From Gossypium raimondii (taxonomy: Eukaryota; Streptophyta; Magnoliopsida; Malvales; Malvaceae), in contig NC_068569.1 in NCBI RefSeq assembly GCF_025698545.1, forward strand, positions 6,572,001 to 6,636,000: 64,000 nt of DNA. The letters run 5' to 3'. The notes beneath the pieces are model-generated. The model did no database searches. It was not told the DNA's origin and worked only from the letters and a program-made list of their open reading frames with translations. Shown piece by piece: positions 5,596 to 52,950 of this stretch (positions are counted from its first letter, which is position 1; each line of letters starts with the position of its first letter). The translations under genes and the position numbers were made by a program.

Positions 5596-6198
5596 CTAAA
5601 GTTCTGCTTCACATGGTACCCTGTCAAAATGTTTGTACCAAGACAAATGCACCGTTACTGAGTAACAAACAATCCTCAGAGTACGATGATTGGACTTCCA
5701 AGTACCTACCTTAAGCCGAATCCTTGCCTTAAAATGAACATCAACTTGAATCTCCTTTGATGTTTTCTCGATCATGAGATCCTTAGATGTTGATGGTGAC
5801 ATTGCCAAATTTAAAGCCACGAGTTTCGGCTTGATTCGGCTCACATTCCTATGAGGTTGGAAGAAGGGATCGACGGTGCTGAACGCCAGGGTTTGATCTT
5901 CATATGTTACTGTGGACTCAATGTAATCATAGTAGACAGAGATTCTGCGGTTACGGTTAAATGCCCTAAGAACAAAATCGAATGTGGCATTGAGATGGTT
6001 ATTGGTTAGGTTGAAATTTTGGACTGAACCATTTTCAAGGGTGTAAACCAACTTTTTTGGACTAATGACTAGCCAAGCGATCAGCACGGCTAGACCGACA
6101 AGAACTATAAGGGCTAGCAAGCAAGTGGCCACGCATCTTACTAGGCTAAATTGTCTTCTCGGCTGTTGTTGTGCTGCAACACTTGTATTGCCTGCCAT
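5596..6198 (-). CDS. NDR1/HIN1-like (NHL, LEA14-type) membrane protein
   Basis: Single-exon gene of 200 residues starting at a true ATG. The N-terminal 20 residues are polar and basic. One strong membrane segment spans about residues 22-45. It is followed by an extracytosolic LEA_2/WHy-type domain with the family hallmark N-R-N-x-x-I-x-x-x-Y-D (residues 81-91) and the later F-x-P-H-x-N-V-S stretch (113-120). Length and layout match plant NHL proteins. These are type II membrane proteins of the plasma membrane or secretory system, related to NDR1, that act in pathogen and stress responses; this is family knowledge and not shown for this copy. A TATA-like run at about 6305-6322 (read on the minus strand) lies about 110 bp upstream of the ATG. 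There is no sign of damage. Which NHL subgroup it belongs to is not decided. Confidence 0.88.
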   Translation of the reverse strand: MAGNTSVAAQQQPRRQFSLVRCVATCLLALIVLVGLAVLIAWLVISPKKLVYTLENGSVQNFNLTNNHLNATFDFVLRAFNRNRRISVYYDYIESTVTYEDQTLAFSTVDPFFQPHRNVSRIKPKLVALNLAMSPSTSKDLMIEKTSKEIQVDVHFKARIRLKVGTWKSNHRTLRIVCYSVTVHLSWYKHFDRVPCEAEL

Positions 6199-6304
6199 TG
6201 TTTTTGCGGGACAATAGTTTGATAAGGACTCTGAACTCAGAGAAATGTCGAATGTTGTTTTATACAGAGTAAAAAGTTAGAGAATATTTTGCCTAATGAA
6301 CATG

Positions 6305-8480: not shown

Positions 8481-8955
8481 AAGTAGTTATTTTCTTACAC
8501 CCCCAAGTGTTGCTGATGCTCTAAAATTGATATATGCCACGTACATATAAAGTAATTAAATCGAGAACTAATGAATTTCAATATTATTAATCTTAAAACA
8601 GAAATTGATCTTTACCTGCTGGGCTGGCTTACTTTCTTTCCCTTCAGTGAAACTTTGCTTTTTCTCCATGATTCATGCTTCACCTCTAAGCAATTCCTAA
8701 ACCATCTTCACTGCAACTTTATTACGGAATATGGATGGCAAGAAGATGGAGTGTATTAAGTTTTATCTTGCTTATAATAAGGGCATGGTTTCATCTTCCC
8801 ATTCTGAGGCCAACTTTCTTGTTCATTGCCTTCTCTGGTGATCTTCACATGACATATCAAAACCTGCCTAAATTTTAATTCAAAATCATGCATTGCGCCA
8901 TTAATTAGATGGAACTTCTACTTGGCATCTTCCCTTTTTCAATAACACTGGAAAG

Positions 8956-8957
<2 letters not shown>

Positions 8958-8987
<30 letters not shown>
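8958..8987. repeat. (AT)n microsatellite
   Basis: About 15 uninterrupted AT units. Confidence 0.95.
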
Positions 8988-8989
<2 letters not shown>

Positions 8990-9294
8990 TTTAGCTAAAT
9001 AACTAATGGGGAGAAAGTAGAATCCGAATCCAAGCAAAGTTCTTTTTTTTTTTAATGGGATAAAGCATGTTAAAAAAAGAATACGCGCTACACGCGCCTG
9101 AAACGTCTACCAAGCCCTTATTATAAGCAAGATTAATCCGACGGAACAAAGCGTGCGGCGCGTGGGAGGGCTTCAACGTTGAAGCATATATAGTACAATT
9201 TTATTGGTAAGGCAGGGAAAAGATGCAAAAGAATAAGGCATAAAAAAGTAGTAAAGTTGTGGTCACCAAATGTGGGGCAATGAAGTTGGTCGCC

Positions 9295-9302
9295 GCATAT
9301 CC
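9295..9302. promoter_or_regulatory. P1BS (PHR1-type) site upstream of the IPS1-like RNA
   Basis: GCATATCC fits the P1BS consensus GNATATNC, the site bound by PHR1-type MYB factors in promoters induced by phosphate starvation. It lies about 90 bp upstream of the TATA box at 9386. An eight-base consensus is weak alone; the context (a miR399-mimic RNA just downstream) is what makes it credible. Confidence 0.65.
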
Positions 9303-9385
9303 CTTGGAAGATGCTGTCGTTTCCTTTTTGGTAAAACCACAAAGTGAAGAAACCCGCATTTCAAATAATCACTTTGTTCCAACCC

Positions 9386-9397
9386 ATATATATATAG
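9386..9397 (+). promoter_or_regulatory. TATA box of the IPS1-like RNA
   Basis: An ATATATATATAG run lies about 265 bp upstream of the first miR399-mimic motif and about 90 bp downstream of the P1BS site. A start of transcription near 9415-9425 would follow from usual spacing. Confidence 0.6.
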
Positions 9398-9654
9398 TAT
9401 ACTAAGCCAAGTTAGCTATAAGCCATTCAAGATTATGCTTATGAGCTATTTCAAGATCGCAGGTGGTTTCACTTAGTCATGGTGCCACCCCCCACCCAAA
9501 AGAACTTTGGAAGCAAATCAAAAGGGTTTAGTGAGTGTTTTCAGCATGGTGGGAGGTGGCGGATAAATATGGAAGGTAAGTTTTGATATATAATTGGGGG
9601 AATGCATGGGTTTGGTTGAATTCAACCTCTTCCAGCCCCAGGAGCCTTTTCCCA

Positions 9655-9678
9655 CAGGGCAACTATAATCCTTTGGCA
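9655..9678 (+). promoter_or_regulatory. miR399 target-mimic motif 1
   Basis: CAGGGCAACT, then the bulge ATAA, then TCCTTTGGCA. Twenty of twenty outer positions pair with miR399. Confidence 0.88.
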
Positions 9679-9790
9679 TGCAGTACTTTTCAGTTGAAGA
9701 TGATCTCTTCACTTCATCATGTGATTGGAGAAACTAGGATTTTTTTGAATTGCAGTCATCAGTTTTCACTGTAAGAGCTGGTTTCTTCCT

Positions 9791-9814
9791 CAGGGCAACT
9801 TCAATCCTTTGGCA
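9791..9814 (+). promoter_or_regulatory. miR399 target-mimic motif 2
   Basis: CAGGGCAACT, then the bulge TCAA, then TCCTTTGGCA. It is nearly the Arabidopsis IPS1 form and starts 136 bp after motif 1. Confidence 0.9.
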
Positions 9815-10030
9815 ATTTTATTTCTCTTTGTGTCATCTGCTTAGATCATTGGAAGTATCATCTACAGCATGGCCTGGAGTTGGTTTCTATTTTGGTAATA
9901 ATTTTTGTGTTTTAGTGTTTCCTTTTTCTCTTTTCATATTTTCTTAGTGCTTGTTGTATGGAATAAGAAATGGTTTGGGTTGTTTGCGTTTGTGATTTTG
10001 GTTCAGTAATGTAATACAATTCATTTTGCA

Positions 10031-12299
10031 GCATAATGTTAGGTTTTTAAACCTCCAAGATAAAATTATGACACATCTCATTTTTCCTTTGTGTTTAGTT
10101 TATTCTTAATATGTTATGAGTTCATTAGTAGCTCCATCGTGCTAAAGGGATATGGCCAAGAACACGAGCCCCATGCAACCCACGAAACCAAAAAAAAAAA
10201 AAAAAAGATGATGAAAACTCTACACATGCATATAATATCTCAGTTATTTTTAATGTGCTATCTTTGAAATTCTAGATACAACCATACATGCATTTTTGTA
10301 TAGCAATTAAATTTAAATAAAAAATAAAAATGTATTAAAGCTCTGATCCTTCTTGGGGCTACAGTGGAGAAAGACATGAATGGAGAAAACGGAAATAAAC
10401 TGTGGTGGTTTGTGTTGATATATCAGACGAAGACACCTGACCTGACCACACTATCTAAGATGTCTGTTTTTAATCTAATAAATTAAAATTCATCCAACAC
10501 CAACAGTGGTGGATGTTCCCAAGGGCGAACAATAGAAAGTGGGTGAAAATCAGGAATATTCTCACCCTCTTACCAGCCAATATTTATAATTCAACACGTT
10601 TCTCTGTGTTTCAAATTCTTCACAAACCTATATCATTAATTCAGTAATAGCAAAATGATAATGACAGAAAACAATAAACTGGTAATGTTCATTTAACCGA
10701 ATTAATCGAAATTAACAAAAATTAACCGAATTGGTAATATATAATATTGGTTTTTCGAAAGTTCAATTAATTACCTGGACAAATAACTAAACTTTCAAAA
10801 ACCATCAACCGACCTCCGACCGAATTAGATAAGTTAACCAACCGAATAACCAAATTAGTTCGGTTTGATCGGTTGATTCGGTTTTAACTCAATTGACAAT
10901 TGTTGATACAATGTTAAATGGGTACACTTTATGTATTAGAAACAAAAAGAGTTAATTGCACTAGATTTACTTAAATTATGGCCTTTATTTTAAATTGGTT
11001 TTTAAATTTCAAAACACTCTACTCATCTTTAAACTAATAAAATTACATCAAATAAGTTATTTCATTACTAAAACTATTAATTGACATGTCAAGTCTTATG
11101 TGATATAATTTAAATAAAAAAATTGAAAACTAAAACACTATAATGAGACAGGGAAAAAAGTGAAAAGATTAAAAGAAATGTAAAATGACAAAATGTGCCC
11201 ATATCTTTAAAATGATATTGCATGTTATTTAATACTTGCATTGATAGGTATTTTATAGAGAAAACTTAGATAATGTAAGGAGGTTTTAAAGTTTGAGGAG
11301 TTATTTAAAATGTGAATCAATGGTTGAAAGAGTAGATTATTTGTTTAAATTCAGAAAGAACATTGTTTGTTGATTTACTAAAATCTTCATTTTGAAATTT
11401 GTTTACAGTAATTTGATGAATAGATTGGAGTTTGATTCCGACATCCTATAATTTTATTTCCTACGATTATTATATGAAATTTTAAGGTCGTATTTGGTGA
11501 GTGACACCAAAATTATATTTGGTTTTTAATTGCTTTGTTAAAATTATATTTAATTTTCACAATCAAAATAATTCTTAATAACTAGTTGGATTAAATATCT
11601 AATAATAAATTTTAATTGATAATTTTAAAAAATAATTAATTTATAATTTTAATTAAAAGTAAAATTATTTTAAATTTGTCTCCTATGTAATTTCTAAACA
11701 TAATAATACATATATAAAACATTTTATTTTAGTTAAAGGCTAATGTATAGGTACTGTAACCTACCATTCTTACAAAGTTTAAATACAACAATTCTACCCA
11801 CATTCTATTAAAATAATAACAAATATTAAATTAAATTTGTAACTGAAAAGGAACGAGTAATCTATTGAAGTAATAAGAAAAATCAAGTTGTAGGAAAGAC
11901 ACAATTACTTTTTTTCTTAAACTAATATAAAATACAATTAATTTTATTTTATTATCTTGTTTACTTTCCAGTCTTCCAAAAAAAAGTAAATAAATTTTAA
12001 CATATCAAATATTTCCAATTAATTTAATTTTGGGTGATTTGTTTAGAGTGTAACCTTACAGAGCACAGTGCTGCAACTTTGAAGTGAAAAATTAAAGAAA
12101 TAAAAAAATTGGATTATTATTTATAGTTTTGACTTCCCGGTTCTGATCCAATTAGCGGGAGAAATTTAAAATTTAAAGTTCAAAATCTACTTTCCAAAAT
12201 TATTTAATTAATAAAAGAATCACAGAATTATGGGCAATTTTAATTTTTAGTCTTTATCCTTCCCTCTCCTAAAAATATCATTATTCCAATTTACAGCTT
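10031..12299. other. Spacer with a worn 'aaccgaa/ttcggtt' repeat
   Basis: No gene seen. At about 10690-10890 the sequence alternates between 'attaaccgaatt'-like and 'ttcggttgattcggtt'-like text. This is a partly palindromic repeat whose edges and class I cannot define. The rest is AT-rich. Confidence 0.45.
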
Positions 12300-17864: not shown

Positions 17865-20800
17865 TTTTTTTTTGTAATAATAGACTGGTTCTTATTAAAT
17901 AGCACTGCTAGCAAAAACTAAAAAATCTCGACACAAAGACAATAATAAATGACAAACAACAGCTGTCCCTCATAAAACAAAGCATAGATAGTATCGTCCA
18001 AAATAAAAGAAAAGAAAAGCAAGATGAAACGCCAAAACCAAAGAAGATCGACTTTTCAATCCCTATGACCAAATTTTGTTGCTCTCCTCAAGCTCAAGAA
18101 TAAAGGAAATAAAACGAAAAGGGAGCAAAGCTTTGAAGAAACCTGGAGATTACAACGAACCTTCTCCAAAAAATCAAAGCACCAACATCAACATACTTAA
18201 GCCATCTGTTCCCAGTTTGACCGATCCTTCCACACCACCAACCGAACCAACTCCGGTACATCGGCATCCCAACTCCCACAACCGCCTCTTCTTCGACCTT
18301 CCATCGCCAGAAGGTGGGCTGCCTCATTAACCGCACGATGCACAAAAGAGTATGTAATCTCTGTAAAAAAACTGTTCATTTGTTTGATATGGCATATAAT
18401 CGGTCTAATAATCGATTTATCCGCTTCATTTCTCCTGACGGTTTTGATGACAGTTAGGGAATCACCTTCCACAACCAGTCGCTGAAAACGCATGTTTCTC
18501 GAAAATATTAAAGCACGTTCACAAGCCCGTGCCTCCGCCACAAAAGGGTGCAAATGTTTTCAAGCAGATAAGTCTCGCCCAATAACATCACCTTTATAAT
18601 TTCTAGCAATAATCTGCTTGTAGTGGCTAACCCTTATCTTTGATAAAAGATGCATCAAAATTAATCTTAATAATACCCACATCCGGAGGCCTCCACAATT
18701 CATTAATCTCAGATCCGGTAATAAAGCAGGGGATCTCATGGCTCAGCCAGGTTTCCTGTTCATATCCTCTAATAAAACCCACCATTTCATGCCTCGAAAC
18801 TTTGACCCCTTCATGCACAAGCTTATTTCTATGAAACCAGTTGCTCCATAATGAAATAGCTATGATATTTTTATGGCGGACATCAGCTTCTATAAATGTT
18901 TTAACAAATTTGTCCTTTTGGCTCAGTGAAGCATCCGTCGGAGGAAGCCGAACGTGCAACATGGCCCATATATTCTGCAGAACCTCACAAGACCACAATA
19001 AGTGCTCAGAATTCTCCAGATCAACCGTACATAGTGGACACACTTTTTCCCCACCCAGAGCTCGGCGCGCCAGATTACAAAAGTGAGGCACCAGATTATT
19101 AAACAGCCTCCACACATGTATTTTGATTTTCTGAGGAATTTTAAGTGACCACAAATCTGTGTAGAAATTCTTGTATTCCTCATCTGTAGAGGATAAATTA
19201 GAACTACTATGTAACACCTCTGTCATAAGGGCCCGATAACCACTCTTCACCGTGTAATCCCCTGATCCTTCATAGTTCCAGACCAGAATATCCTCCGACC
19301 TACTTTCAGAAATGGGAATGGATAGAATTCTATCCGCTGTATTATCATCAAATAACTTATGAATAAGCTCCCTATCCCAGGTATTGCCCTCCATATCCAT
19401 TAATTGATTAACCATTGTCCAAGTAGTTCGAATGTTCTGACCTTGAATTCTGTTGTTCTCCTTTCCAGGTAGCCATGGATCATTCCATATGTTAATGCAA
19501 TCACCCCTCCCAACTCGCCATAGAAGCCCATCTCTAATTAAATCACGCGCATTACAAATGCTTCTCCAGGTATATGAAGGGTAAGATCCTACCTTAGCTG
19601 ATAAAATATCTGAGTGAGGATAATAACGGGCTTTGAACACCTTGGCTAATAAACTATTAGAACAAGATAACAAACGCCAAACCTGTTTAGCCAACAAAGC
19701 TTTATTAAACAGAAACAAATCTTTAAATCCCATACCTCCACAGCATTTTGGCTTACATAGTTTTTCCCAATTACTCCAATGAATGCCCTACATTGATTTA
19801 TTATTAATCCACCAAAATCTGTTCATAATACCCTCCAGTTTTTGACATAAAGTCTTAGGCAACAGAAAGCATTGCATAGCATAAATTGCAGATGCCTGCA
19901 AAACTGATTTAATAAAGACCTCCTTGCCCCCCATCGACAAATAGCGCAAGTTCCACCCTTCAATCCTTTTTCTAAATCGATCCACATAACTGGCAAAAGC
20001 CCACTTTTTCTTCCTCCCCACCATCATAGGCAAACCTAGGTACTTTTCGGGATTGGAAGCCACCCTAACACCTAGCATGTTGATAATCTCCTCTTTAACA
20101 CTTGACTCCACATTTGCACTGAAATAGATGAGGGATTTTTCAAAATTTACACGTTGCCCTGAAGCCATCTCATACTCACATATTACTTCTCTAACAACCC
20201 CAGCTCTTTCACTAGACACATCTCCAAATAATATACAATCGTCAGCAAAGAATAAATGGTTTATTACAAATTTTTCCCTACCAACAGGTGCACCTACCAT
20301 TCGTCCTTTAATTTTGGCCTCACGAATGAGTGTCGAAAAACCTTCGGCACAAATTAGAAATAAGTAGGGACTTAGAGGATCTCCTTGTCGTAACCCTCTT
20401 GATGGGGAGAACCATTCACCATTATAACCATTCAGATTGACAGAATAAGAAACAGAACAAACACATTGCATAACAAGAATAATCCAATCCATATGAAAAC
20501 CCAACTGCTTCATCATACCTTCCAAATAATCCCATTCAACACGATCATACGCTTTAATCATATCAAGCTTTAGTGCAAAATGGCCTTTCTTACCGCGCTT
20601 CTTCATTTTTAGAGAATGAAGGATCTCGTAGGCAATCAGCACGTTGTCCGAAATAAGTCTTCCTGGGATAAATGCCCATTGCGCTTCATTGATACAAAAC
20701 CCCAGCATTCCCCTCATGCGATTCACCAAGACTGTTGCAATAATTTTATAAACAACATTGCACAGACTTATGGGCCTAAAGTGTGACATATCTTTTGGTT

Positions 20801-22339
20801 TATCAATTTTCGGAATCAAAACGATACGCGTTTTATTAAGATCACCGAATTCAGCCTGACCATTCAAAATAGATAAACAAAACTGTGAGACCTCCGAGCC
20901 AACGATATGCCAATACCTTTGGAAGAAAATTGCTGAGAACCCATCAACCCCAGGTGCCTTCAACGGCGCCATCTGCTTAACTGCGTAATCAATCTCCTCT
21001 TTAGTAAAAACCTTCAGTAATTCATCATTCATACTATCCGTGACCTTTCTCTCCACTAAACTAAATAGATGTTCATCCCATCCTATATCCGACGCAGTGA
21101 AAAGATTACCAAAATACTCGTTTGCAATCTGAAGAAGCTCCTCATGCGAACTCGCTGTCCTCTCACGATCATCTTGCAACTCCTGAATTCTACCCCGAAA
21201 ATGACGTTGCACAGCAACCTTATGAAAATAGCTTGTATTCCGATCACCATTCTTTAGCCAGTTCACACGTGCCCGTTGCTCCCAGAATAATTCTTCCTTA
21301 TCAACTTCCAGATTAAGCTCCACTTGGACCTTCGTAATTTCAGCTAACACCTCTTCAGAAATATCTTGAGAATACAGCTTAGCTAATCTATCCTCTAAAT
21401 CAGTTCTACACCTTTTCTTTTCCCTGTCAGTAGCCCTACTCCACCTAAGTAAATGATACCCCAAATCCTCCAATTTGCCCAAAACACTGCCAGACTTCTC
21501 ATCCCACCACGTTTTGATCATCTCCTCAAAAGAGCCATCTAAACACCATTTGGCTTCGAATCGAAAAAGCTTACCAAAACTGCCTACATTATTCTTTGAC
21601 ACTCCCAAAGTATCCAACAATATGGGGCAGTGATCAGAAAAGGAATGACTCAAATGTACAAGCCGATACCCAGGGAATAGATTCACCCAATTCAACGTTG
21701 CAACCCCACGATCCAACCGTTCCCGTATATTTGTAGCTACCATTCGTCCTCGCTCCCATGTGAACCATCTACCAGTAAAGCCAAGATCCATAAGATTACA
21801 ATCCTCCAACGCCTCACGAAAATCCTTCATTTGTCGCTCTGAACGAAGATGTCCTCCCTTCTTTTCAAAAGAGCTCGCAATCTCGTTAAAATCTCCCAAA
21901 ACCACCCATGGGATAGATTGATCATGATTCAACTGACGAAGAAGCTCTCACGAAGCGGTCCTATACCGTTCATTCGGGTTTCCATAGAACCCCGTAAACC
22001 TCCAAACATTACCACATTCATTATCATGAACTTCAACATCAATATGAAACAAAGAAAAACTTTTAAGCTGCACCAAAGAATTACCTTTCCACCCCAATGA
22101 TAAACCTCCTTTAGTACCCACAGCCCCTACATCAATTCCATTCTCAAAACCACATTTCATCTGTATTCCCTCCATTCGTTTTGAACTTAATTTTGTCTCC
22201 ATATGAAACAAAATACAGGGATTTATGGCTCTCAATTTATTCCTGAGCCTATTGACTGTTCGCGGTCTCCCCAAACCACGAACATTCCAGCTTAGGATTT
22301 TCATTGCTCCCGGCTGCTCTGGCCCCCAGAGCTAGCCGA
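17865..22339 (-). mobile_element. L1-type LINE (non-LTR retrotransposon), 5'-truncated
   Basis: The element is bounded by a 12-bp target-site duplication, AGAATTCTAAGT, at 17853-17864 and 22340-22351. It ends (minus sense) in an A tract seen here as T's at 17864-17873. It holds only ORF2, starting 35 bp inside the 5' border; the ORF1 (gag-like) region expected of plant L1 elements is absent, so it was truncated during insertion. Order on the minus strand: AP-type endonuclease, reverse transcriptase, zinc-binding RVT domain, RNase H. It sits between the two copies of an older direct repeat. Two in-frame stops and one frame change make it inactive, but the perfect duplication shows the insertion is not very old. 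Confidence 0.95.
18197..22304 (-). pseudogene. LINE ORF2: endonuclease, reverse transcriptase, zf-RVT, RNase H
   Basis: Begins M-K-I-L-S-W-N-V-R-G-L-G, the standard start of plant L1 ORF2. The endonuclease shows M-E-T-K, G-D-F-N-E and S-D-H-C-P-I-L. A TGA stop at 21950-21948 interrupts it shortly before G-D-F-N-E, and the same frame then continues. The reverse transcriptase (about 20.9-19.9 kb) has Q-M-A-P-L-K-A-P-G-V-D-G-F, F-A-L-K-L-D-M-x-K-A-Y-D, G-L-R-Q-G-D-P-L-S-P-Y-L-F and the catalytic F-A-D-D. A TAG at 19790-19788 follows, and the frame continues through the zf-RVT region, with a C-P-L-C-x(7)-E-x-x-E-H-L-L-W-S-C cluster. The RNase H domain (N-F-D-A-S-F, then F-V-A-E-A-R-A-C-E-R-A-L, then a W-K-D-R end) lies partly in another frame after about 18.6 kb. 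RNase H at the end of ORF2 is known for one group of plant L1 elements. Confidence 0.93.
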
Positions 22340-30664: not shown

Positions 30665-30855
30665 TATTAAGCAGTTAGTATTAAGCAGTTAGAAAGTTGT
30701 TAAGTTTGTTTAATGCAGCTATATTGTTGAGAGCAAATATTAAGAAAGAAGGATGCCTATATATACGGTATCTGGTGAGTTGAGAGGTTAAGAATTTTTG
30801 AATAACAAAAGAATATTTTTCATCATTTCTCTCTACTGTTTATCATATTCTTTCA
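30665..30855 (+). repeat. 5' LTR of the copia element
   Basis: 191 bp, starts TATTAAGCAG and ends TTCTTTCA, with a TATATATACGG promoter-like run inside. Nearly identical to 35720-35910. Confidence 0.95.
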
Positions 30856-33800
30856 TAGTATCATTCGCCATTTGATTCTGGATTGTTGTATCATGGCTTC
30901 CTCTGACTCTGTGTTTGGTGAACCGAGCTCTGGTCCGTTCGCCGGTGATCATGTCACGAGTCTGTTTCCTCGGCATGAGGTGGTTAAACTCGATGACGAC
31001 ACATATCTCCAATGGCGTAAACAGGTAAAACTAATCGTTGATGGCTATGGCCTTACAGGTTTTCTAGATGGTACGGTTGTTCCGCCGTCACGGTTTCTTT
31101 CTTTGCCCGATGGATCTCGTGCTCCAAATCCGGCCGAAGCGGTGTTTACGCAACAAGACCGGCTGCTGACTTCATGGCTTTTGTCCACCATCAGTTCGTC
31201 GCATCAATCTTCGTTTGATGATACATGCACGGCGTGTGACATATGGACAACGGCGAGTAATGTGTTTGCCGCTGATACTGGTGCTAAACAGTCACGGTTC
31301 CGGCATGAACTTCATTCTTTGAAGAAAGGTACTCTTTCTGTTAAAGCTTATGTTGCTAGAATTAAAGAGTTGTGTGCTATGTTAGCTGCATCTGGATCTC
31401 GTATATCTGATGAAGAGAAAATTGAGATAACTCTCGCGGGATTGCCGTCGGAGTTTGAGGCGGTTATATCTTCCGCTGGATTGTCGACCGGTATTCTGTC
31501 TTTACAACGTTTGGTTGATGCGTTGGTTGACTGTGAGAGCCGTCAAGCTCAAGTGCTGCAGGAAGTTCATTTGAATGCCAACCTCATTGAAGATGCGCCG
31601 TCGGTTGAAGGAGCCAATCGTGCGGGTCGTCCGCCGGTGCGTGGACGTGGCAGAACGTTCAGATCTCGTGTTCAATGCCAGATCTGTAGTCGCTTCGGTC
31701 ATGTGGCATAGAAATGCTACTATCGTTATCATCGCGACTCGAATACCTCATCCGTGGAGCATCAAGGGGGTTCGTCTGGTGTTGAGCGGTCTAGTTCTGG
31801 TGTGGTTGCGCAACATGATGAAGAACAGTATGGGGTTCCTCATCCGAAAAGTCAAAGGACTTTCTATGGCCAAGGGAATTATGCTAGTCAAAATAGGCAT
31901 GTTGATGGTCAAAATTGGTGTGCTGGCATGCAAAATGATAGTTTGGTGCGTGTGCCACATGTGCGTTCTGAGCAGAATGAATCTGGCCGCTTCTATGGCA
32001 ATGTTCAGAGGCCTAATGTGTGTCAATTTGGTAGTAATGATGGGCATGGTTTTAATGGTTCTAAGTCAAGAGAATTTGTTGATGGAAATAGTCGACCTGT
32101 GTTTGCACACTCATCACTTGGGCCACATATTGAATCAAACGTTGGGCCGCATGGTGTTCCATCCTCAAATTTTGTTCAAGTTGATCAAGCTGATCCCGGT
32201 TCGCCTGAACCGATTGAGATTGATCGGGTTGTACGATTGACCAAACCGCGTGCTCGGGTGTATACTGGGTCAGATATGTGTATTGGGCTTCCTCGACTAG
32301 GGGATCTAAATGCGTCTGATTATACTGATTCTTCAGTGTCGGAATCTCATGTTAATACTGCTCAACTCGGATCTCGTACTGGTGATGATGGTTCGTATCT
32401 TCCAATGCACGGTGGCACCACAACCTGGTACCCTGACTCGGGAGCAAGTCATCATGTTTGTCGTGATGTGTCAGCATTACGTGATGTCACGCCATATGTA
32501 GGTAAGTCGTCTCTTTTAATGGGTGATGGTACTCTGCGGTAATTTCGTCAATTGGTACTGCTATTTTACCTACTCAGTATAAGTCATTACGATTATCAAA
32601 TGTCTTAGTTGTGCCGAGTATACGGAAAAACCTCTTATCCGTCTCACAGTTTGCTCGTGATAATGGTGTGTTTTTTGAGTTTCATCCTAACCGTTGTGTT
32701 ATTAAGGATATGGTGACTTGGGAGACATTGCTGACGGCCGCGTTCATGATAGACTATATCAGTTTTCTGTGCCAATGGGCTCTACTACGTCTAAGGTTGC
32801 TCCATTTGTTGCTCATTCACAAGTTCCACATACAGTTTCAAATAATAATGTTTTTCCATTATGGCATAATCGTTTAGGCCACCCATCAAATTCTGTGGTC
32901 AAAACAGTTTTAAATAAATGTACTGTTGCTTCAAGTAAATATAGTTTGGATGGTATATGTACTGCATGTCAAAAAGGTAGGTCACATAAATTGCCTTTCT
33001 CCCCTTCGACCACTACATATCGTCCTTTTGAGTTGGTCGTGTCTGATCTTTGGGGTCCTGCACCTGTTGCATGTGGTGATAAAAGATATTATGTTTCATT
33101 TATTGATATGTGTACTCGTTTTACTTGGGTTTATCTTTTACGTCAAAAAGCTCAAGCACTAGAATGCTTCACTCAGTTTCAACAATTAATTAAGACACAG
33201 TTTGGTAAGTTTATTAAGCAGTTCCAGAGTGATTGGGGAGGCGAATACCGTGGGTTTACGTCGGTCTTAGAATATCAAGGAATCATACATCGACTGACAT
33301 GTCCGTATACTTCAAAACAAAATGGAGTAGCTGAGCGTAAACATCGGCACATTGTTGAAGTGGGTATTGCATTGTTGGCTCACGCAAATTTGCCTATGGA
33401 ATACTGGGGGTATGCGTTTTGCTGTGCAGTACATCTTATAAATCGACTTCCTACTGTTATCCTTCAGGAAAGTTCTCCGTTTAAGGCACTATATGGATAT
33501 GATCCGACCTATGATCATCTTAGAGTGTTTGGTTGCTGTTGTTATCCTTACTTACGTCCGTTTGTAAGTCATAAGTTGGAATTTCTATCTCAGCCGTCTA
33601 CATTTTTGGGATACAGTCCTCGTCACAAGGGGTATCAATGTCTTTTACCAGATGGTAAGGTTATAATTTCAAGACATGTGGTATTTGATGAGCAGAGATT
33701 TCTGTTTGCTGAGACTAGTCCAGACAAGTCTGTATCGACGACCAGTTAGACTAGTTCGAATATTGTTCCTCTCGTGTGGCCGTCTTATTACTCAACTCTT

Positions 33801-35719
33801 GAGCCTTGCATGATGACACCATCTTTACAAGGGTTGCATTCTCAGTCTCCTGATCCTGTATTAGATGTTAATTTGGAGCAGTCTCAGTCTCATGATTCTT
33901 CAGCTGATGTTGGGACTAGGTCGGGTAATCCTCCAGCTCATGATTCGTCAGCTGATGATGGGATTGAGTTGAGTGACCTTCCAGCAGTACATGGCTCAGG
34001 ATCATCAAGTAATAATAATACTCACTCTCAGTCTACTATGAGAATATCTGCAGATGTTTCATCGGCATCTGATAGTCAAAGTAGTAGGCCACCTATGGGT
34101 AATACTCACCCAATGGTCACTCGAGCTAAAGCGGGGTTTACAAGCCTAAGGTTTTAAATGTTGAAGCTGTTGAACCAACTACGATTGAAGAAGCTCTGGC
34201 TATTGTTGAGTGGCGCGATGCTGCGCAAGCTGAGTATGATGCTCTTATGCGTAATTCTACATGGGAGCTAGTTCCTACTCCGTCTAATCGTAAAATTATT
34301 GGGTGCAAATGGTTGTTCAGAATCAAAAGGAATTCTGATGGTACTATTGCTCGACATAAGGCTCGCTTAGTTGCAAAAGGCTGTTCGCAGGTTCCAGGGT
34401 GTGATTTTAAGGAAACTTTTAGTCCGGTGGTAAAACCAGCTACTATCAGAGTTATTTTGTCTATTGCTGTGTCTCGGAGATGGTCCCTTCGGCAAGTGGA
34501 TGTGAATAATGCATTTCTAAATGGCGATCTTGACACTGAGGTGTTCATGCATCAGCCTCCTGGGTACGTTCAGCTCGATTCTCATGGTAGACCTTTGGTG
34601 TGTCGTCTGAAGAAAGCGCTTTATGGTCTTCGTCAGGCTCCTCGTGCCTGGTTTGAGAAGCTTAAAGGGTTTTTAATATCGGTAGGGTTTACGGTATCGA
34701 AGTCTGATGCTTCTTTGTTTGTCAGGGTTCAATCAGGTTCAACACTCTATGTTCTTGTGTATGTTGATGATATTGTTGTTACAGGGGATGTGTCCACTGT
34801 TATAGATTGGTTTGTTCAGTTGTTGAATAATGAGTTTTCGCTTAAGGATATGGGCGAACTTCATTACTTTCTTGGAATGGAGGTTACTCGTTCTTCCTCA
34901 GGATGCCTTCATCTTTGTCAGAAGAAGTATATCCGAGATATTCTTATTCGATGCTCGATGGAGAATGCGAAGAGTGTTAATACACCGATGATAAGTTCTA
35001 ATATTATGACTCGAGATGAGGGTCAATGTTTAGCGGACCCAACTGAATACAGGAGTCTTGCTGGGGCACTACAGTATGTGGCACTCACGAGACCTGATGT
35101 GGCATATGCGGTTAATCGCATATGTCAGTTTATGCATTGTCCCACCTCTATTCATATGACTGCTTTAAAGCGCATATTGCGATATCTAGGTGGTACGCTT
35201 GAATTTGGGATTGCATTTCGTCCAAATACTAGTCTATCCTTAGTTGGTTATGCTGATGCAAACTGGGGGTTAGATTTTGATGATCGGAGATCCACTACTG
35301 GATATTGTGTGTATTTCGGTTATACTCCTGTGTCATGGTGTTCTAAGAAACAGCAAGTTGTTGCTCGATCTACTGCTGAGGCGGAATACAGGAGTCTTGC
35401 TGCTGTCACTAGTGAGGTTACATGGTTGCTATCATTGCTTCAGGAATTGCATGTTAAATCCTCAGATGTACCAAATGTTTGGTGTGATAGTTCCGGTACA
35501 GTTGCGGTTGCTGCTAACCCTGTTCTACATTCCAAGTTTAAGCACGTTGAGTTAGATTTGTTTTTCGTTCGTGAAAAGGTTGCAAGTGGTTCAATAGTAG
35601 TAGGAGAAGTTCCTGCGTGTGATCAAGTCGCTGATGTTCTCACTAAACCACTTTCGCTATCAAATTTTGCTCATTTTAGGAGTTGTCTAAGGGTTTTGCC
35701 TAGAGAGAAGATGGATGAA

Positions 35720-35910
35720 TATTAAGCAGTTAGTATTAAGTAGTTAGAAAGTTGTTAAGTTTGTTTAATGCAGCTATATTGTTGAGAGCAAATATTAAGA
35801 AAGAAGGATGCCTATATATACGGTATCTGGTGAGTTGAGAGGTTAAGAATTTTTGAATAACAAAAGAATATTTTTCATCATTTCTCTCTACTGTTTATCA
35901 TATTCTTTCA
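35720..35910 (+). repeat. 3' LTR of the copia element
   Basis: 191 bp, same ends as the 5' LTR. The TTAAC target-site copy follows, and then the host exon resumes (AAATACGAAATCCC). Confidence 0.95.
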
Positions 35911-39908: not shown

Positions 39909-40334
39909 CTAAGAACTAGTAAACTTGGTGACAGCCTTAGTCCCTTCAGAAACAGCATGCTTAGCCAACTCCCCGGGCAGAACCAGCCTCACAGCTGTTT
40001 GAATCTCCCGAGATGTAATTGTGGGCTTCTTGTTGTAACGAGCGAGCCTCGAAGCTTCCTGAGCAAGCTTCTCGAAAATGTCATTAATGAAACTGTTCAT
40101 AATCCCCATGGCCTTGCTCGAAATCCCGATATCAGGATGCACTTGCTTCAGAACCTTAAAGATGTAGATCTTGTAGGTTTCGACGCTCTTCTTTGGTCGC
40201 TTCTTCTTCTTGTCGCCGGCTTCCTTGGGGAGCTTCTTCTCGGCTCTGGGCTTTTTCTCGGTTGGTGCCTTCTCGGCTTTTTTGCCTTCCGCTGGTTTTT
40301 TCTCAGCAGGCTTCTTCTCGGCCTTTGGTGCCAT
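39909..40334 (-). CDS. H2B: Histone H2B
   Basis: Single exon, 141 residues. The ATG at 40334 was chosen over an upstream in-frame codon because M-A-P-K-A-E-K-K-P is the standard plant H2B start. The N-terminal tail (about residues 2-50) is Lys/Ala/Pro/Glu-rich with repeated K-K-P-A-E units, as in plants. The histone fold follows: [19 protein letters not shown], then [12 protein letters not shown] and the C-terminal A-V-T-K-F-T-S-S. The Lys near the C-terminus (A-V-T-K) is the site of regulatory ubiquitination in the family. H2B pairs with H2A in the nucleosome. Lack of introns is normal for plant core histones. A TATA box and a CCAAT box lie upstream. No damage is seen. Confidence 0.97.
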
Positions 40335-40380
40335 AGGAATTTTGATTTCCAAGATGATGGAGAACACGGAGGTGAATTTA

Positions 40381-40413
40381 TGATATATAGGTGACCGGAT
40401 GAGATCTGATTGG
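40381..40413 (-). promoter_or_regulatory. H2B core promoter: TATA and CCAAT boxes
   Basis: On the minus strand CTATATATCA (40390-40381) lies about 50 bp before the ATG, giving a very short leader as is usual for histone genes. CCAAT (40413-40409) lies about 20 bp further upstream. A G-box-like CCACGTGG sits at about 40636-40643. I found no exact CGCGGATC histone octamer. Confidence 0.6.
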
Positions 40414-41029
40414 TGGGTTTTTCTCTGAGAAGATCGATGGCGTGGGAAGTAGGAAGCGTTGGATTTGAGAGGATGGCATTGGACGGATAGGATTTGCTTT
40501 TTCGTCTTTGAAGTTTAAGAATTTAAGCGGGGTTTTTTTTCCTTTCCAAATTTTTGAACTTTTGGCTGAGTTTTTGTATTTCGCGGGCGAATTTATGGAT
40601 GAATGATAATCCGTAACAAACCAGCTGCATCTCTCCACGTGGCAATTCAGTGATAAGAGCGCTTCTTTCCGTCGCAAGGAAAATCCAAAGTAGAAACGCT
40701 TCTTTATTTGAAATTCAAGCCTTTCTTCTTTGCATATATAATTTTCAGAAAGACCAAAAAACAGCCAAAAAATTACATGAAAAAATTGGTCATGGTAATC
40801 AGAAGTGACAAAAATTTGGGTTGAAAAGAAGGTAAAAGTTCCTTGGCATAGAATTCCTTGATCACACTCGTTTACTTATCTAGAGCAAACAATTTGGAGA
40901 CATGTAATCAACAGCAGATACAATTTTGACAATGATTAAAGATATAGCACAAATTAGTTTAAGGGTAGAATTATTAGTACTTACGATCCTATTATATATA
41001 GGGGGCATTTTTATTTCTTTTGGTTTTAT
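40414..41029. other. H2B upstream region and spacer
   Basis: The first 270 bp are probable H2B promoter. The rest is AT-rich, without a recognisable gene. Confidence 0.4.
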
Positions 41030-42126: not shown

Positions 42127-43326
42127 CTAACCTGGGTTCGCCTTAGGATTAGTAACAAGAGCTGGAGTATGGCCAACGAACAAAGCAACGTGACCCATAA
42201 GCTTATCTTTCCTTGAAAAAGTGGTACCGCAAGAGCACTGCCACTTGAGATCACCACAGTGCTTTTCATGAGTCCTGAGATCTGACAACACCGAGAATTG
42301 CTTGCAGTTACATCGTTTGCAAACATACATCTTGGGACAATGGCTCCTCTTGTAATGATTCTTCACACAAATCATGGATTTCAAGGGTTGGAACTTGGCA
42401 TGTTTCTGGTTCCACCTACAACCTTCCTGAGGACATGAATACTTCTTATTCATTTTCGTTGAACAGTTTCCCATGGCACTACTACTACTACTTCCCTCTC
42501 TAGGATTCTTCATGGGGTTAATCAAAGCAGCACTGCTCTTGTATTCATCCCCGTGAGCTCTCATGTGCATTCTCAAATTTGCGTCTCGCTTGAACCCTTT
42601 ACCGCAAACTTGACAGTAATGTGTGTACTTAGCTAATAAGTCTTCAGCATCCAATTCGATTATGTCATATTTCATAGCTGAAACCGCTTCACACCCTCCG
42701 CTAATTTCACTTCTTCGAGGCAATTCAACAAATTCTTTCCTTTCCAGCTTATCGTCATTACTGACTTGTAAACTTCGATTCCTATTATTGCCATTGTTGT
42801 TGTTACGGTCATTATTGCAGTGGTCGCCATACCAGCTAATCGTTTCAGCACTATAATAAAAGCTTTGCCCTTTTTCTTGAACAATGTTACCAACACAAAT
42901 ATCACTGAAGTTGGGTGGTTGAGAGATCCGATTATCAGGAATCACCCTAACATGCTGCTGATGCAATTCAGTGTTGATATTGTTACCTGAAGCAGTTCCA
43001 AGAGACATCTGTTGGCAAATAAATATCATGGAAGATGCTGTGACAATGATATCTTGAACCAAAGAATCCATGCTTGAGACGGCTAAAGAAGTTGACTCCG
43101 GATGAGCTTGATCAGGAGATATAAGGATGCTAACAAGTGACTGAGCCTCGTGAACTTTATCTTTCAGGATGGAGAGATTGTAGAGGAGAGTGGTTGAATG
43201 AGACTGATCTGGGCCTGAACCTGAACCAGCTTCGAGGGAAGATGGAACCATGTTTTCTTCAGCCAAGGGATACATTGGCGAACCTTGTGATGCACTGGGG
43301 AAACATGAAGCGGACCCTGAAATCAT
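42127..43326 (-). CDS. STOP1/STOP2-like C2H2 zinc-finger transcription factor
   Basis: Single exon, 399 residues from the ATG at 43326; the open frame runs further upstream but has no earlier ATG. The N-terminal 220 residues are low-complexity (Ser, Gln, Asn-rich). From about residue 222 the text is that of STOP1: [18 protein letters not shown], finger 1 to about residue 258. A second unusual finger is [12 protein letters not shown]-x-K-F-Q-P-L-K-S, then Y-V-C-K-R-C, and finally [22 protein letters not shown]1-type factors act in the nucleus in acid, aluminium and low-phosphate responses of roots (activating genes such as ALMT1 in Arabidopsis). This copy is shorter than STOP1 (about 500 residues) and nearer STOP2 in size. 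Oddity: C-N-C-K-Q-F, where the family usually has C-N-R-K-Q-F. Confidence 0.92.
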
Positions 43327-43499
43327 TTTCAAGAAATTATTGGTTGATTTTATCTTTTCTTTGTTGGGATTTGGATAGCACTCTCTAAAACTAACAGGCT
43401 TGTTTTTGAGGAAGACATTGAGGGAGAACAAAGAGAGCTCTAAGTCAACTTAAGAGCTTGTTTACGTTCATCCCCACTTAAGACCTTCCTCAGTTATTC

Positions 43500-49392: not shown

Positions 49393-49465
49393 TGTTACTG
49401 CCCAGGACCGAACTGAGGACCTTCAGTGTGTAAGACTGACGTGATAACCACTACACCACAGCAAC
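49393..49465 (-). tRNA. tRNA-Val (anticodon UAC)
   Basis: A 73-nt cloverleaf. The acceptor stem is GTTGCTG with CAGTAAC (one G-U pair), discriminator A. The D-arm is GTG-TAGTGGTTAT-CAC, which also serves as the A box. The anticodon arm is TCAGT-CTTACAC-ACTGA, giving anticodon TAC (Val). The variable loop is AGGTC and the T-arm CTCAG-TTCGGTC-CTGGG. The T-loop has G at position 58 where A is usual, and the T-stem has a G-U pair, so decay or mild divergence is possible. A run of T's 11 bp past the 3' end (seen as A's on the plus strand) is a good Pol III terminator. There is no intron. Confidence 0.87.
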
Positions 49466-51940: not shown

Positions 51941-52819
51941 TTAGTAATGGCAATCTATCAAAGCTGGTGTGGTGAAAACAATAGCTTGTTGGGGTGCTCC
52001 GAATTGGAACTTGGCATCCCTGAGATCATCTTCTGGTGCAGGAAGATTAAGATCCAGAGCTAGGATATTTCTAGGCTTGGTTCCATCACCATTGCCTGAC
52101 TCAATTGGAATGCTAGTAGTATCAACACTCACAGCAGCTTGATTGCTTGCCGCCGCCCTGTGCCGTCTCATGTGGCCTCCAAGGGCTTGACCAGACAAGA
52201 ATTCAGAGCCACAGATTGAACACTCGTGAATCTTGTTACCCTTGTTCCCATGACTATTAGTCTTGTTGTTGTTGTTGTTGTTGTTACCTACTTGTAAAGC
52301 AAGAACCGCAGGGCTTTCTCTATTGAATTGATCAGCGTCTTCAACACCATGATCTTTGAATGCCAAAAAAAGTGGTTTTTTCTCATCTGCGGTGGCTCCC
52401 TTGGGCTTCTTGTGGCTTGCCCTATGCCCTCCTAGTGCTTGGAATGATGGGAAAGACCGGTTACAGGTTTTACACTCGTACGCATAAACTCCAGCCTTGT
52501 TTGTTGCAGTAACCATCTCCTGTTTCTCTTCAATATTGCTCCTCCTTTTTGGGCCATCACTTTGTGCTAACATGATTAGGCAGTTAGCCATGTCTTCTTC
52601 TTCCTCGGTGCTCTCGTAAATCTCACCGGAAGTCACCGGAGAGGAAATCGAATTGTATTCCTCCGCCACTCCACCGCCGCCGCCGCAAGCACTTGAGGAG
52701 CTAGAAGTCACAGTGACACCGAACGGGGACGATGATCTTTGACGCTTGGTACGCTTGCCTTTCATGATCAAGGCTTGATGATCAATATTAGACACCTCAA
52801 AATCCGGTTGAGCTTGCAT
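51941..52819 (-). CDS. ZAT5-like C2H2 zinc-finger protein with EAR motif
   Basis: Single exon, 292 residues from the ATG at 52819; a GTG two codons upstream is not taken as the start. Order of parts: basic nuclear-signal-like K-G-K-R-T-K-R-Q-R (residues about 20-28), a Ser/Gly-rich stretch, and an L-box-like E-E-D-M-A-N-C-L-I-M-L-A (about 75-86). Two plant-type C2H2 fingers each carry Q-A-L-G-G-H, at about 116-136 and 200-220. The DLNL EAR repression motif (A-L-D-L-N-L-P-A-P-E-D-D) is at about 254-265. This is the architecture of C1-2i/ZAT repressors such as Arabidopsis ZAT5, which bind promoters of stress and growth genes and recruit corepressors through the EAR. An Asn run (about 179-186) is low-complexity. 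No damage is seen. The exact ZAT orthologue is an inference. Confidence 0.92.
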   Translation of the reverse strand: MQAQPDFEVSNIDHQALIMKGKRTKRQRSSSPFGVTVTSSSSSACGGGGGVAEEYNSISSPVTSGEIYESTEEEEDMANCLIMLAQSDGPKRRSNIEEKQEMVTATNKAGVYAYECKTCNRSFPSFQALGGHRASHKKPKGATADEKKPLFLAFKDHGVEDADQFNRESPAVLALQVGNNNNNNNKTNSHGNKGNKIHECSICGSEFLSGQALGGHMRRHRAAASNQAAVSVDTTSIPIESGNGDGTKPRNILALDLNLPAPEDDLRDAKFQFGAPQQAIVFTTPALIDCHY

Positions 52820-52950
52820 ATCCACCCAAATCTAAAGAAAAATAGTACTAAAAGGAAATCAAAATAAGGCAGCTGACCTAACAGAGTAACAGACTAAGGG
52901 CTACAGAAAACAAATGCAATGAAGCAAAGATAGAGAGAGTAAGGGGGGAT

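Follow-up and report, generated by a model that had tools for sequence, protein, structure and literature searches.

The 64-kb stretch of DNA analysed here (the window) contains, on its forward strand, a putative non-coding transcription unit that carries two candidate miR399 target-mimic sites and is preceded by a P1BS, a motif B and a TATA-like element (Table 1). Candidate splice signals lie within the same unit, with a donor upstream of both sites and an acceptor between them.

Table 1. Features of the candidate mimic locus (positions are those of the window; a slash marks the splice point).
Feature	Position	Strand	Description
P1BS (PHR1-binding site), GCATATCC	9295..9302	+	Exact match to GNATATNC; ~350 bp upstream of site 1
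Motif B, GAAGATGC	9307..9314	+	Matches GAWGATNC; 4 bp after P1BS
TATA-like element	9387..9393	+	Pattern match; putative transcription start near 9417
Putative non-coding transcription unit	9417..10040	+	~620 nt unspliced; ends placed from TATA and poly(A)-like hexamers
Candidate splice donor AAG/GTAAGT	9573..9581	+	Would open an intron at 9576; lies 5' of both mimic sites
miR399 target-mimic site 1	9655-9678	+	CAGGGCAACT-ATAA-TCCTTTGGCA; loop ATAA, 4x1
Candidate splice acceptor ending in GAATTGCAG/	9736..9755	+	98.4th percentile of 6697 AG sites; would remove site 1
miR399 target-mimic site 2	9791-9814	+	CAGGGCAACT-TCAA-TCCTTTGGCA; 3-nt CAA bulge with G11-U
Plant poly(A)-like hexamers	9962 and 10008	+	Pattern match

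The genes of this AT-rich window look like those of a flowering plant, and its transposon proteins are reminiscent of cotton and its relatives. The closest gene upstream for which the scanned ORFs gave a Pfam match encodes an LEA_2 domain protein (5599-6276, minus strand), and an (AT)15 microsatellite (8958-8987), a potential marker, lies just upstream of the promoter of the mimic gene. Downstream, the window holds a LINE-like element (18630-22331, minus strand), with a zf-RVT match on 18630-19787 and adjoining long ORFs that look by eye like endonuclease/reverse transcriptase, and a Copia-type LTR retrotransposon (30806-35722, plus strand; gag 30806-31708, RVT_2 34130-35722). Pfam also matched a core histone gene (39912-40514, minus strand), H2B by eye, and two fingers of a C2H2 protein (51944-52831, minus strand), ZAT type by eye, and a tRNA-Val (anticodon TAC) was found at 49393-49465 on the minus strand. 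A further Pfam-matched gene encodes a STOP2-like C2H2 zinc-finger protein (42130-43449, minus strand); factors of the STOP1 type take part in responses to acid, aluminium and phosphate.

All 20 outer bases are common to the two mimic sites, and only the four in the centre vary (ATAA versus TCAA). An earlier note, made from the letters of this DNA, had reported two 24-nt motifs spaced 136 bp apart, and the pattern search recovered both: allowing up to 3 mismatches on either strand of the window, it returned exactly two matches, 9657-9678 and 9793-9814 on the plus strand, each with 0 mismatches. The 24-nt coordinates in Table 1 correspond to these 22-nt pattern matches plus the CA preceding each. 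Start to start the sites are 136 nt apart, with 112 nt intervening. No third site was found in the window when the 20 fixed bases were searched around a free centre with up to 5/20 mismatches. None of 100 dinucleotide shuffles contained the mimic pattern, and when 300 scrambled 20-base queries were run, the fewest mismatches reached on either strand were 4 for 7 queries, 5 for 46, 6 for 178 and 7 for 69. Since no shuffle matched and even the best scrambled query was left with 4 mismatches, we do not consider the sites a product of chance. The mimic motif pattern had no match in viral contigs or in genome contigs, as expected for a plant gene.

The similarity between the sites reaches 8 nt further upstream as a pyrimidine-rich lead, giving a repeat of 32 nt in total with 84% identity. 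Beyond it, the 100-nt flanks are unlike, with an equal or higher score in 175/500 and 427/500 shuffles. A larger, recently duplicated unit is therefore not supported, as the 32-nt core is all that the sites have in common and the flanks are at shuffle level. Arms that are kept while centres and far flanks diverge are the pattern that would be expected under selection for pairing.

Duplexes were computed with five miR399 sequences, all of them Arabidopsis ones, on which the resulting energies depend. Both sites pair bases 1-10 and 12-21 of miR399b/c. The complementarity of all 20 outer bases to miR399 claimed earlier thus holds for miR399b/c, but not for miR399a, d, e and f, which pair more weakly, with extra mismatches in the 3' half. 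The centre also needs qualification: loops do lie opposite miRNA position 11, where a 4-base bulge had been described in each motif, but as modelled with miR399b/c the first U of UCAA in site 2 can pair with G11, leaving a classical 3-nt bulge, while site 1 presents an A opposite G11 and forms a 4x1 internal loop. In these models the two sites are not equivalent in loop design. Their computed strength, in contrast, differs little. With miR399b/c the duplex energies were -34.5 kcal/mol for site 2 and -32.2 kcal/mol for site 1, as against -41.9 kcal/mol for an unbulged control, a gap between the sites of 2.3 kcal/mol that narrows to 0.7 kcal/mol with the other four miR399. The idea that the two sites might have different affinities for miR399 variants is therefore compatible with the two loops, although the calculated gap is small. 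Unequal potency of the two loops is possible by analogy, because decoys with bulge and mismatch loops have served, as transgenes, to tune miRNA inactivation, as described in passages of PMC3121747.

Folding predictions gave a mixed picture. The predicted mean unpaired probability was 0.54 for site 1 and 0.48 for site 2, compared with 0.41 for the whole RNA, whereas predicted 8-nt opening at the site ends was 0.016 and 0.025, compared with a median of 0.035. As support for function, accessibility is thus equivocal: one measure lies above the values of the RNA and the other below them. A shared stem-loop beside the site has been reported for Brassicaceae IPS1; here, no common stem-loop beside the sites was evident by eye in 40-nt local folds. 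For site 1 these scored -4.4 on the upstream side and -6.2 on the downstream side, and for site 2 -7.4 and -2.5, respectively.

Upstream, P1BS and motif B form the only such pair within 25 nt of each other in the 64-kb window, and their order, P1BS then B with a 4-bp gap, is that of a published A-P1BS-B fragment. When 9100-9415, a region picked after the pair had been noticed, was shuffled 2000 times, one shuffle contained such a pair, and whole-window shuffles (n=200) held on average 0.18 pairs, with a maximum of 2. P1BS by itself is weak evidence, because it is common: there are 18 in the window, and one turns up in 3.5% of the 130-bp stretches drawn from it at random. A second P1BS-type site, the palindromic GAATATTC, is located at 10554-10561, downstream of the putative transcript. 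According to passages of PMC2936532, mutation of motif B abolished the response of Arabidopsis IPS1 to phosphate starvation, and motif B is found near P1BS in the promoters of IPS1-family genes from Arabidopsis, Medicago, tomato, poplar and maize. The start of transcription is less firmly placed and we only infer it, because TATATA runs are frequent in this AT-rich DNA.

Within the unit, coding potential is low. The longest listed ATG-started ORF on its plus strand is 35 aa, and none of four local ORFs (63-69 aa, two per strand) had a Pfam match at E 0.01, which bears out the earlier remark that the locus has no real open frame. Taken together, the exact sites, the module of P1BS and motif B and the lack of coding potential agree with the class first proposed, an IPS1/At4-type miR399 mimic. 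We consider it very probable that the locus belongs to this family, an assignment strengthened by the promoter module found upstream.

Two other miR399-related gene classes were considered, namely that the locus is part of a PHO2 5'UTR with its array of miR399 targets, or part of a MIR399 precursor. In favour of the former, PHO2 genes too are multi-site, with five miR399 sites apiece in three Medicago genes according to passages of PMC10319397. However, at up to 3 mismatches no unbulged miR399 site was found in the window, and one simple regular expression for the UBC catalytic motif had no match in its six frames; the PHO2 5'UTR was rejected on these grounds. The precursor was rejected in turn because no Rfam miRNA family reached its gathering score in the window, and of the nine Rfam matches that 8601-10800 gave at E up to 5, none fell over the mimic sites. 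Either identity is extremely improbable. Decay of a former two-site gene, leaving one or both sites non-functional or the locus silent, also has something to recommend it, as the loops are unlike and site 1 pairs slightly more weakly. We nevertheless regard it as improbable, since the outer arms carry no mismatch in either site and the promoter module is intact.

The main question is whether both sites reach the mature RNA, and it turns on the splice signals. Using splice-site weights that are approximate values for dicots and untrained, the donor at 9576 scored at the top (99.98th percentile) of 6040 GT sites. Its string AAGGTAAGT occurs a single time in the window on either strand, CAGGTAAGT is absent, and shuffling the transcript 2000 times gave AAGGTAAGT in two cases. 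The acceptors are good but not outstanding, with percentiles among the 6697 AG sites of 97.2 for 9657, 98.4 for 9755 and 98.9 for 9793, and weaker ones at 9683 (95.3) and 9693 (89.0). Branch-like TTCAC and TTCAT lie 44 and 39 nt upstream of 9755, and a branch-like sequence lies 25 nt upstream of 9793; the branch pattern searched for had no match ahead of 9657 or 9683. T content is 0.34-0.35 in the candidate intron, 0.27 in the preceding DNA and 0.46-0.47 in the following DNA, so that base composition is equivocal as intron evidence. Splicing from 9576 to 9755 or 9793 would delete site 1 and leave an RNA of ~444 or 406 nt by arithmetic. Splicing from 9576 to 9657, in contrast, would retain both sites, because the exonic AAG would restore AGGGCAAC.

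These signals make it possible, though we hold it to be on the unlikely side, that the locus is an IPS1/At4 gene in which an intron runs from 9576 to ~9755 (or 9793) and whose mature RNA carries site 2 only; site 1 would then be, with the same doubtful standing, an intronic relic or a feature of a minor isoform. The donor is the sole one of its kind in 64 kb and rare in shuffles, both acceptors that would remove site 1 rank high and have branch-like sequences upstream, and T content rises from the preceding DNA into the candidate intron. Passages of PMC5854128 add that the pipeline behind PDIL1, an Mt4-like RNA of Medicago, required more than one exon, which is a hint of splicing within the family. 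On the other hand, all 20 pairing bases are intact in site 1, which would be odd for a relic, and T content rises further downstream of the candidate intron, unlike the contrast usual between plant introns and exons. In addition, either spliced RNA would fall short of the length of IPS1 homologs, given as more than 500 nt in passages of PMC6508833.

A more elaborate arrangement can be imagined from the sequence, in which splicing sets the number of decoys per RNA and the locus produces a decoy RNA of adjustable valency. Each site starts as CAG/GG after a pyrimidine tract, so that both site starts double as candidate 3' splice acceptors (9657 and 9793), and joining the donor's exonic AAG to one or the other would restore AGGGCAAC. 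RNA left unspliced or spliced to 9657 would then carry two decoys, and RNA spliced to 9793 one. As these acceptors reach only the 97.2nd and 98.9th percentiles and no branch-like sequence of the kind searched for precedes 9657, we think such an arrangement quite improbable, even more so than decay. From the sequence evidence as it stands, our preference, unproven and held with modest confidence, is that both sites lie within the main mature RNA. The doubled sequestering capacity suggested in the earlier note for two sites in one transcript is likewise hypothetical.

The explanation that we favour for the locus as a whole, somewhat more probable than its opposite, is an IPS1/At4 gene whose main mature RNA includes both sites and holds miR399. 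By family knowledge, PHR1-type factors would bind P1BS and motif B (9295-9314) during phosphate starvation, and the bound module would turn on the ~620-nt non-coding RNA. Its sites would pair with miR399 on either side of the slicing position, while the central loop would block cleavage. Sequestration of miR399 would in turn spare PHO2 mRNA. This mechanism is established for Arabidopsis IPS1 and presumed to apply here. With both sites 112 nt apart, the mature RNA would resemble a short tandem target mimic (STTM) of natural origin, in which site 2 would offer the classical 3-nt bulge and site 1 a looser 4x1 loop.

IPS1 was the example on which target mimicry was founded, and in the later STTM design engineers placed two bulged sites on one RNA for stronger inhibition. 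If a naturally occurring mimic gene with a different loop in each of two sites is confirmed, it would suggest that plants arrived at an STTM-like design, and dose and loop type could be tested within a single native RNA. Should site 1 instead be spliced out, the locus would be a case of a mimic gene with splicing-dependent valency.

The literature agrees with the earlier statement that RNAs of this family are usually described with one motif. Passages of PMC11062440, PMC11393275, PMC6508833 and PMC9118565 describe the IPS1/At4 family by one conserved motif of 22-24 nt, and according to those of PMC3121747 IPS1 has just one site, bulged by 3 nt; one remark in PMC9118565, on two motifs in higher plants, is ambiguous. 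Within these partial texts, two full mimic sites were not clearly described for any IPS1 RNA, and the exact motif strings had no literature match. More than one decoy per RNA is workable in transgenes, where passages of PMC3121747 report that one RNA with decoys for two different miRNAs functions. For artificial tandem mimics, a table row in the available part of PMC9918958 sets spacers of 8 and 31 nt apart from those of 48, 88 and 96 nt; the column heads are absent there, and we read the row as weak (8, 31 nt) versus effective (48, 88, 96 nt).

Compared with IPS1/At4/Mt4/TPSI1 RNAs (Arabidopsis IPS1 is AT3G09922), the locus is alike in its miR399-complementary arms around a central loop, its promoter with P1BS and motif B, its non-coding character and, if unspliced, its length above 500 nt. 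It differs in having two sites where IPS1 has one, and in the 4x1 loop of site 1 as opposed to the 3-nt bulge of IPS1. With STTM constructs it shares two bulged sites for one miRNA per RNA, separated by a spacer. These are engineered, however, with spacer lengths of 48, 88 and 96 nt given in the portion of PMC9918958 cited above, whereas the arrangement here is natural, with 112 nt between two unlike loops. Medicago PDIL1 and maize PILNCR1 are similar in mimic type and phosphate context, as far as passages of PMC5854128 and PMC11393275 describe them; the comparison with the present locus is by description alone, and a second site goes unmentioned in those passages. We file the locus under the IPS1/At4 family; the family is an ordinary one, the two-site layout unusual.
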